Assembly: GCA_019638115.1 (NCBI GenBank)
Contig: JAHBUK010000001.1
Location: forward strand, 638,238 to 702,237
Origin: Flavobacteriales bacterium
Lineage (GTDB): Bacteria; Bacteroidota; Bacteroidia; Flavobacteriales_F; PHOS-HE28
Direction of reading: 5' to 3'
DNA: 64,000 nt
Both the position numbers and the translations under genes were made by a program. Each line of letters starts with the position of its first letter. Positions within the stretch are counted from its first letter, which is position 1. This document shows positions 39,806 through 42,166 of this stretch, in pieces. The notes under the pieces were generated by a model that was given only the letters and a program-made list of their open reading frames with translations, searched no databases and was not told the DNA's origin.

Positions 39806-40828
39806 ATGTTAGCCCGCAGCCGCGATGCCTTTGAGTGGAGCCGCAAGGCCACCCCGCGCCGGCTGCGCAATGCTTTGGGGCTTTGGACGAGCTTCCAACG
39901 TGCCAAGCGCAGCAAAGAACCGCGCATCGGCGGCCTGCCCTTCAGCATCAGCTTCGAGCCCACCACGGCCTGCAACCTGCGCTGCCCCGAATGCCCCAGC
40001 GGCCTGCGCAGTTTCACACGCCCCACGGGCAACCTCAAGCAGGACCTCTTCACCCGGGTCATCGACGAACTGGCACCCGACCTCTGGGCCCTCACCTTCT
40101 ACTTCCAGGGCGAGCCGTACATCAACCCCGGTTTCCTGGACATGGTGCGCTACGCCCATGAGAAGGGCCTGTATACCGCCACCAGCACCAATGCCCATTT
40201 CCTGGATGATGCCAAGGCGGAGGCCACGGTGCGCAGCGGGCTTTCGCGCCTGATCATCTCGCTGGACGGCACCACACAGGAGACCTATGCGCAATACCGC
40301 CGTGAAGGCGAGCTCGCCAAGGTGATCGAGGGTACCAAGCGCATCGTGGAATGGAAGCGCCGCTTGAAAAGCCGCACGCCGCACGTGGTCTTCCAGTTCC
40401 TGGTGGTGAAGCCCAACGAGCACCAGATACCCGAGGCGCGCGCACTGGCCAGGCGGCTGGGCGTGGACGAACTGTGGCTGAAGACCGCGCAGATCTACGA
40501 CCCCAAGGACGATCACCCGCTGATCCCCACGCAGGACAAATACGCCCGCTACCGGCGCAATGCCAGCGGCATCTGGGAAGTGAAGAACAAGCTGGAGGAC
40601 AACTGCTGGAAGATGTGGCACAGCTGCGTGATCACCTGGGATGGCCGCGTGGTGCCCTGCTGCTTCGACAAGGACGCGCACCATGTGCTGGGCGACCTGC
40701 GTACGCACAGCTTCAGGGAGTTGTGGCACAGCGATGCCTACAACGCCTTCAGGCGCTCCTTGCTGCACTCCAGGAGCAGCATTGAGATGTGCAGGAATTG
40801 CAGCGAAGGGAGCCCGGTGTGGGCGTAG
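39806..40828 (+). CDS. Radical SAM protein with SPASM domain
   Basis: This 340-residue protein has the radical SAM cluster motif CNLRCPEC (Cys-x3-Cys-x2-Cys) in FEPTTACNLRCPECPSGLRS near residue 55. A C-terminal SPASM/Twitch domain follows, with Cys residues in NCWKMWHSCVITWDGRVVPC and MCRNCSEGSP, and the typical phrase LGDLRTHSFRELWHSDAYNA. Such enzymes use S-adenosylmethionine and auxiliary Fe-S clusters for peptide or small-molecule modification. No precursor peptide gene is visible next to it. A -7-like TAACTTTC (39794-39801) ends 4 nt before the ATG. The GIY-YIG cassette begins 5 nt after its stop. Confidence 0.9.
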   Translation: MLARSRDAFEWSRKATPRRLRNALGLWTSFQRAKRSKEPRIGGLPFSISFEPTTACNLRCPECPSGLRSFTRPTGNLKQDLFTRVIDELAPDLWALTFYFQGEPYINPGFLDMVRYAHEKGLYTATSTNAHFLDDAKAEATVRSGLSRLIISLDGTTQETYAQYRREGELAKVIEGTKRIVEWKRRLKSRTPHVVFQFLVVKPNEHQIPEARALARRLGVDELWLKTAQIYDPKDDHPLIPTQDKYARYRRNASGIWEVKNKLEDNCWKMWHSCVITWDGRVVPCCFDKDAHHVLGDLRTHSFRELWHSDAYNAFRRSLLHSRSSIEMCRNCSEGSPVWA

Positions 40829-40832
40829 GCCC

Positions 40833-40864
40833 CTTGTCACTCCGGGCTTGACCCGGAGTCGCAC
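40833..40864 (+). repeat. Left 32-bp inverted repeat of the GIY-YIG cassette
   Basis: Starts CTTGTCACTCCGGG and ends CCCGGAGTCGCAC. It is the exact reverse complement of 41288-41319 and of the orphan copy at 41459-41490. Confidence 0.9.
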
Positions 40865-40892
40865 GAATGCCCACCCACCCTACCTTCGATTC

Positions 40893-41282
40893 ATGACCCG
40901 CATCCATCAATACTGGGTGTACATCCTCACGAATAAAGGCAGAACAACGCTTTATCTGGGCGTGACGAACGACCTGCAGCGCAGGCTCTTCGAGCACCGC
41001 ACAGGAAAAGACAAGAACTCCTTCGCTTGGAACTACCAATGCTGGACGCTCGTGTATTTCGAGCCGTTCAAGTATGTGAAACAAGCGATCGCAAGAGAGA
41101 AGCAACTCAAGAATTGGAAGCGGGAGTGGAAGGTTGCGCTCATCGTCAAGGAGAACCCATCCTGGTCGGACCTCAGCAATGACTGGGACTACCGCGGGTG
41201 GTTCGACCCGAACGACCCACCGCCAGGGTTCTTCTCCCAACACAGGGTGGAGCAATGGGGAAGCCCTGAGGGGCAGCGATAA
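40893..41282 (+). CDS. GIY-YIG nuclease family protein
   Basis: This 129-residue protein has a single GIY-YIG domain: WVYILTNKGRTTLYLGVTND (the GIY and YIG motifs appear as VYI and YLG), DLQRRLFEHRTGKDKN with the catalytic Arg, and the family tail AIAREKQLKNWKREWKVALI. The general base Tyr and the Glu of REKQLK are present, so activity is plausible. Small free-standing GIY-YIG proteins of this type are common but uncharacterised; relatives include UvrC and homing endonucleases. A -7-like TACCTTCG (40881-40888) ends 4 nt before the ATG. It is flanked by perfect inverted repeats. The last 34 or so residues lie within a region that is tandemly duplicated downstream. Confidence 0.9.
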   Translation: MTRIHQYWVYILTNKGRTTLYLGVTNDLQRRLFEHRTGKDKNSFAWNYQCWTLVYFEPFKYVKQAIAREKQLKNWKREWKVALIVKENPSWSDLSNDWDYRGWFDPNDPPPGFFSQHRVEQWGSPEGQR

Positions 41283-41526
41283 GACCTGTGCGACTCCGGG
41301 TCAAGCCCGGAGTGACAAGCCTATGGCGCCATCACTTTGCAACTGTGCAAGGACTGGGACTACCGCGGGTGGTTCGACCCGAACGACCCACCGCCAGGGT
41401 TCTTCTCCCAACACAGGGTGGAGCAATGGGGAGGCCCTGAGGGGCAGCGATAAGACCTGTGCGACTCCGGGTCAAGCCCGGAGTGACAAGCCTGTGGCGC
41501 CATCACTTTGCAACTGTGCAATGACT
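41176..41526 (+). repeat. 171-bp tandem duplication including the tail of the GIY-YIG gene
   Basis: The segment from 41181 repeats from 41352 with a 171-bp period and only about two or three base differences. It contains the 3' end of the nuclease gene and the right inverted repeat, giving an extra repeat copy at 41459-41490. The 9-mer GCAATGACT bounds it at 41176-41184 and 41518-41526, with a one-mismatch copy at 41347-41355, which fits slippage between short direct repeats. Confidence 0.9.
41288..41319 (-). repeat. Right 32-bp inverted repeat of the GIY-YIG cassette
   Basis: Perfect inverted match to 40833-40864, starting 5 nt after the nuclease stop codon. A third identical copy in the same orientation lies at 41459-41490. 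Confidence 0.9.
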
Positions 41527-41605: not shown

Positions 41606-42166
41606 TCACACCTTCATGATGTCCCTTTCCTTGGCCTCGAAGAGCGCATCCACCTTCTTGTTGTAGGTGGCGGTTAGCTTCTCCACGTCGGCCTCCAAGG
41701 CTTTGGCGGCATCTTCGGGCAGGCCGTCCTTCTTGGCGGCCTTGATGGCTTCCATGGCTTTCTGGCGGCTGCTGCGGATACCCACCTTGGCGTGTTCGGC
41801 CTCCTTGCCGGCGCCCTTCACCAGGTCCTTGCGGCGCTCTTCGGTGAGCATGGGCACGTGGATGATGATGCTCTCCCCGTTGTTGCTGGGGTTGAAGCCC
41901 AGGTTGGCACCGATGATGGCCTTCTCGATCGGGTCGATCATCTTCTTCTCCCAGGGCTTCACGAAGAGCGTGCGGGCATCACCCGTGTTCACGGCCGCCA
42001 CTTGGGAGAGGGGCACCATGCTGCCGTAGTAGTCCACCTTCACGGTATCCAACATGCCGGGGTTGGCGGCACCCGCGCGGATCTTGGTCAGCTCGTGGTC
42101 CAAGTGCTCCACGGCTTTGTTCATGTGATCTTCACACTGTTGGATGGCGATGTTGGCTTCGGACAT
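41606..42166 (-). CDS. frr: Ribosome recycling factor
   Basis: This 186-residue protein matches RRF in length and motifs: MNKAVEHLDHELTKIRAGAA, NPGMLDTVKVDYYGSMVPLS, KPWEKKMIDPIEKAI, LTEERRKDLVKGAGKEAEHA and VGIRSSRQKAMEAIKAAKKD. RRF splits post-termination 70S ribosomes together with EF-G. It is the last gene of the translation cluster, separated from pyrH by a FlgO/CsgG-like gene. A -7-like TAAATTCG (42201-42208) lies 34 nt upstream, so it may have its own promoter. Confidence 0.97.
   Translation of the reverse strand: MSEANIAIQQCEDHMNKAVEHLDHELTKIRAGAANPGMLDTVKVDYYGSMVPLSQVAAVNTGDARTLFVKPWEKKMIDPIEKAIIGANLGFNPSNNGESIIIHVPMLTEERRKDLVKGAGKEAEHAKVGIRSSRQKAMEAIKAAKKDGLPEDAAKALEADVEKLTATYNKKVDALFEAKERDIMKV

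Follow-up and report, generated by a model that had tools for sequence, protein, structure and literature searches.

The window analyzed here is a stretch of 64,000 nucleotides from the genome of a Flavobacteriales bacterium. Within it, an open reading frame at 40893-41282 that encodes a GIY-YIG protein of 129 aa (Pfam PF01541, E 2e-16) is bracketed by two perfect 32-nt inverted repeats, CTTGTCACTCCGGGCTTGACCCGGAGTCGCAC, the left of which starts 4 nt past the stop codon of a radical SAM/SPASM gene (stop at 40828). Both the coordinates and the Pfam match agree with an earlier, sequence-only reading of this DNA, in which identical 32-bp inverted repeats around a single small nuclease gene were described at this place. 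Every one of the 32-nt repeats is a hairpin by itself, ACTCCGGG-CTTGA-CCCGGAGT. A further identical repeat, also pointed out in that reading, is indeed present at 41459-41490 but is not an independent copy. It lies in a 171-bp tandem duplication, the two units of which are 98% identical and in which the 3'-terminal part of the nuclease gene, the right repeat and some downstream DNA are copied. We considered and rejected the possibility that the third repeat is a piece of a larger composite, given that the tandem duplication accounts for it. The features of the locus are as follows.

39806..40828, + strand: radical SAM/SPASM gene, a conserved neighbor that marks the insertion junction, outside the element
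40833..40864, + strand: left CGTC-type REP, with TTGTC tag, stem ACTCCGGG/CCCGGAGT and loop CTTGA (consensus per PMC3733652)
40893..41282, + strand: GIY-YIG nuclease gene, 129 aa, with Y10, Y21, R31, H35, E69 and N88 conserved in the family
41176..41346, no strand: first 171-bp tandem unit, containing the 3' end of the gene and the right REP
41288..41319, - strand: right CGTC-type REP, inverted with the tag outward
41347..41517, no strand: second 171-bp tandem unit (98%), containing a gene remnant and the third REP
41459..41490, - strand: third, identical REP copy, within the duplicated unit
41606..42166, - strand: frr-like gene (name read from sequence), a convergent neighbor outside the element

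The arrangement of the repeats at this locus is not due to chance. The palindrome also occurs beyond the cassette, dispersed over the 4.06-Mb window genome in 18 places at 3 or fewer mismatches (versus 0 for the reversed control), and the intact GIY-YIG gene is present in a single copy. In this multicopy dispersal, as well as in structure, the repeats resemble the CGTC-tagged REPs that were defined by Di Nocera et al. in 2013 and include dRS3 and RPE-4/RPE-6 (PMC3733652). The unpaired tag, which is CGTC, TGTC or CCTC in that class, is TGTC in the window and CGTC or TGTC at most of the loci; the stem, ACTCCGGG, is 8 bp long, with A in position 1 and C instead of T in position 2, and closes on the loop CTTGA; and the tail, expected to be near CCA, is CGCAC in the genus of the window and CCA-like in others.

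In the enclosed protein, the catalytic Tyr, Tyr, Arg and Glu of the GIY-YIG nucleases are present as Y10, Y21, R31 and E69, which are invariant or nearly so; no NCBIfam model matches the window protein. The AlphaFold model (pLDDT 87) resembles UPF0213 proteins, to which the solved structures nearest in both sequence and fold belong (PDB 1zg2, 1ywl), and, weakly, Slx1. The latter is a nuclease that acts on branched DNA, and recognition of hairpins by the window enzyme would be plausible. The dN/dS values of seven pairs of relatives range from 0.05 to 0.19, which shows that these relatives evolve under strong purifying selection.

The association between such genes and tagged hairpins extends far beyond the window genome. 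One scan comprised 80 GIY-YIG relatives from Bacteroidota, Proteobacteria, Firmicutes, Patescibacteria, Elusimicrobia and other groups, which were found by protein motif alone, so that their flanks are unselected. GTCA-tagged hairpins are located within 250 bp of 76 of these 80 genes, on both sides in 56. Near the gene, the density of these hairpins is 6.43/kb, approximately 8-fold above that in the other intergenic DNA (0.84/kb), whereas the coding DNA of the same loci has 0.16/kb, with coding regions approximated by long ORFs; the remaining four-letter tags occur near the gene at 0.2-0.7/kb. An even spread of the repeats, which the sequence-only reading had named as an observation that would count against it, is thus not what is seen. 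Among the four exceptions are two loci, L063 and L095, where variant tags accompany long inverted repeats, and one, L023, where a REP-like stretch is repeated. Flanking palindromes were detected at none of six bona fide UPF0213/YhbQ-type GIY-YIG genes, where the longest inverted repeat is 7-9 nt. Whether the repeat flanks orthologous genes at different loci was among the checks proposed in the earlier reading, and the repeat class does accompany GIY-YIG relatives at various loci across many phyla. CGTC-tagged palindromes flank such genes in Azospirillum lipoferum, Novosphingobium aromaticivorans and Neisseria gonorrhoeae (dRS3), all from lineages named in the 2013 survey (PMC3733652), and likewise in Rhizobium, Sphingobium and Aeromonas.

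Several individual loci deserve mention in their own right. On plasmid AZO_p3 of Azospirillum lipoferum 4B (L251), a REP-GIY-YIG-REP unit sits between sufB and sufC, within the suf cluster. On plasmid p1 of Planktothrix agardhii (L254), a GIY-YIG gene has an MmeI-type restriction gene on one side and drmA, the DISARM helicase gene, on the other, and its flanks contain GTCATTCTGAG repeats that the hairpin test did not call. At three loci (L172, L173 and L174), distant GIY-YIG genes adjoin incomplete tRNA gene copies, and in two of these copies a CCTGCCTGCC palindrome is present.

A second class of palindromes, with the center GAGCGNAGYCGA, flanks other clades of GIY-YIG genes. Mapped onto a phylogeny of 143 proteins, palindrome class requires 2 changes over 113 labeled rows (92 of class I and 21 of class II), and in a comparison of three groups (I, II and none) the class II label requires 8 changes versus a shuffled mean of 19.9, results that, with few columns and many weak forks in the tree, speak to clustering. 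The window genome contains 68 class II palindromes (YYGAGCGNAGYCGARR), although a GIY-YIG gene of class II was not detected there; another genome of the same genus, G050, has 52 class II palindromes and no GIY-YIG match. Within the genus, class II counts show no more than a weak association with the gene of that class (means 16.1 versus 8.6, p 0.018).

The number of class I palindromes also follows the gene. Among 45 genomes of the genus, the 7 that encode a close homolog (60% or more identity) have a mean of 11.0 class I palindromes versus 2.2 in the other 38 (p 1.7e-4). In a set of 296 genomes from the class, class I palindromes average 15.0 with a close homolog, 3.8 with an intermediate one, 0.54 with a weak one and 1.2 with none (close homolog against all others, MWU p 1e-15). 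The effect holds in permutation within families (p about 5e-5; 20 families in favor, 2 against) and persists (p 0.004) after subtraction of 4 flank copies per positive genome. Under the strict pattern, a class I match is absent in 33 of 80 genomes that carry a close homolog, a few genomes are rich in palindromes (65, 25 and 11 copies) without a detected gene, and gene matches reach 17 per genome. The link between repeat and nuclease that had been surmised from a single locus is supported by the agreement of palindrome class with GIY-YIG clade and by that of repeat number with the gene within families.

Traces of mobility are apparent at several levels. In relatives from the same genus, the junction between the radical SAM gene and the frr-like gene is empty (3-55 bp) in 7 genomes, and in 5 genomes it is occupied by other GIY-YIG genes of 39-65% identity, in either orientation and with palindromes of their own. 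The comparison of empty sites that the sequence-only reading had proposed hence did reveal junctions that are empty or otherwise occupied, but not the target duplications that were to be sought there: none was clear in homologs of MoaE, LeuRS and DapD, and similarities in the flanks, such as AATGC, look like ends of the elements. In the window genome, REPs are inserted in frame within genes resembling DapD, LeuRS, AlaRS, MoaE and a polyketide synthase (names read from sequence), and the DapD loop concerned contains different palindromes in other species and none in yet others. The in-frame REPs at these five loci (L001, L006, L008, L010 and L012) add about 12 residues, e.g. GATPGQARSDNA. Palindromes are inserted into palindromes as well: two genomes that are 97% identical in this region, G039 and G010, are distinguished by a REP that has entered the loop of a second REP, and the window genome has five cases of a palindrome interrupted at its loop by another.

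Plasmids provide further comparisons. In Sphingobium, the cassette form is REP-gene-REP, and a sister plasmid without the cassette has a single palindrome exactly at the cassette place, in which the left arm equals that of the left REP and the remainder, loop and right arm, equals that of the right REP, so that the two outer halves are combined. A cassette-free site in S. meliloti also has a lone hairpin. The empty sites of Shinella, one of the three plasmid lineages examined, have no lone REP, and we therefore rejected a lone REP at the empty site as a general pattern. The ends of a Sinorhizobium GIY-YIG cassette (L273, approximately 1307-1430 and 1793-2136) match repeats that are dispersed over the S. 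meliloti replicons, which suggests that those repeats may be non-autonomous, RIME-like derivatives.

What kind of element could account for these observations? We consider it probable that the locus is a REP-gene-REP element in which the repeats are CGTC-tagged REPs and the stand-alone GIY-YIG nuclease is the cognate enzyme of this repeat class. As far as comparison of sequences can establish them, the constant pairing, its clade specificity, the dispersal of the repeats, the presence or absence of the cassette at fixed junctions, the insertions inside genes and palindromes and the purifying selection on the relatives can all be taken as given. The REP/RAYT-like logic with a GIY-YIG enzyme, which was put forward in the sequence-only reading, gains support from the sequence comparisons that it had proposed; cutting and mobilization are inferred. 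In such a scenario, the nuclease would recognize the tagged hairpin, either extruded or single-stranded, and nick it at or near the loop or the base, whereupon repair of the break would copy a REP, or the entire REP-gene-REP unit, into the site. The outcome would be the spread of REPs to intergenic spacers, to tolerated in-frame positions in genes and into palindromes already in place, at their loops. Both the nesting within loops and the solitary palindromes at some cassette-free sites suggest, although they do not prove, that the cut falls at the center of the hairpin. GIY-YIG enzymes are hydrolases that are not known to perform strand transfer, so mobilization would have to rely on host repair.

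The same observations have to be weighed against other scenarios. The GIY-YIG gene might be a homing-type parasite of REPs, which would spread by other means and serve it as landing and cutting sites; the single palindrome built from the outer REP halves at the cassette place in the Sphingobium sister plasmid, and the lone hairpin at the empty site in S. meliloti, speak for this. However, the Sphingobium pattern could also have arisen by deletion between copies of an 8-bp direct repeat, ACCCCGGG, the Shinella cassettes are inserted where no REP is seen, and a pure passenger would not require that the genome-wide number of REPs track the gene within families or that the palindrome class track the nuclease clade, so that we regard this scenario as unlikely. 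Even less probable, in our assessment, is a role in host maintenance, whereby the GIY-YIG protein would resolve REP hairpins during replication and the flanking REPs would be regulatory, with no mobility involved. The strong purifying selection and the weak fold match to Slx1 are compatible with such a role, whereas the patchy presence, the same-genus junction that is empty or holds different GIY-YIG genes in both orientations, the up to 17 gene matches per genome and the insertion between sufB and sufC in Azospirillum all argue against it. Finally, CGTC-REPs could be moved by a RAYT or another transposase, the association with GIY-YIG genes being a by-product of shared intergenic sites, inasmuch as placement near convergent gene ends is common to the GTAG-REPs (PMC3733652). 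This we deem very improbable because the 2013 survey saw no transposase gene flanked by CGTC-REPs and concluded that they have no dedicated transposase (PMC3733652), and because the enrichment near the gene over other intergenic DNA is clade-specific and UPF0213-type genes lack the association.

Returning to the REP-gene-REP element with its cognate nuclease, we lean, if with some hesitation, toward a broader proposition, namely that GIY-YIG nucleases may drive the short mobile palindromes of an entire superfamily (CGTC-REPs, dRS3, RPE-4/6 and related repeats) via hydrolytic cutting of hairpins combined with host repair. If this is the case, the mode of spread of these palindromes differs from those of the known bacterial transposons and REP/RAYT elements. 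CGTC-REPs are known from several phyla, including dRS3 of Neisseria and the RPEs of Rickettsia, and yet no enzyme was found for them in the 2013 survey; the constant, clade-matched nuclease partner makes their spread directly testable with one protein of about 100 aa and a 30-nt hairpin. A role is thereby suggested for many genes that carry no annotation beyond 'GIY-YIG nuclease family protein' or, for one of the genes here, 'excinuclease ABC subunit C', and the pairing connects the biology of REPs with palindromes inserted in frame and with nucleases of the homing type. The earlier reading knew of no described mechanism for this pairing; we likewise found no report of it in the openly licensed literature, and a search of the GIY-YIG superfamily paper for mention of palindromes found none.

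The element can be compared with several known systems. Among GIY-YIG proteins, the UPF0213/YhbQ family includes the nearest solved relatives, yet its six bona fide members examined are not flanked by palindromes. The homing endonucleases of the I-TevI type are similar in that the nuclease gene may sit in its own target, with a lone site in some cassette-free relatives, but the present element has no intron, and its enzyme has no extra DNA-binding domain and would act on a palindrome present in many copies instead of a unique site. The Rickettsia palindromic elements in coding genes are, by their description, comparable through in-frame insertions in conserved genes; they were described without a dedicated enzyme. 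A parallel in organization is the GTAG-REP/RAYT (TnpAREP) system, or REPtron, in which, as here, tagged palindromes of a genome-dispersed type surround one enzyme gene and many dispersed copies are non-autonomous. The RAYT, however, is an HUH/Y1 tyrosine transposase whereas the window enzyme is an unrelated GIY-YIG nuclease (PF01541), so the element falls outside that group despite working in a REP/RAYT-like way. With the CGTC-tagged REPs, finally, the repeats share the (C/T)GTC tag, the 8-9 bp stem, the 4-5 nt loop, the short tail, the dispersal and the location, frequently where convergent genes end and within genes; these REPs were described without an enzyme (PMC3733652), and here a GIY-YIG nuclease gene is their constant partner.
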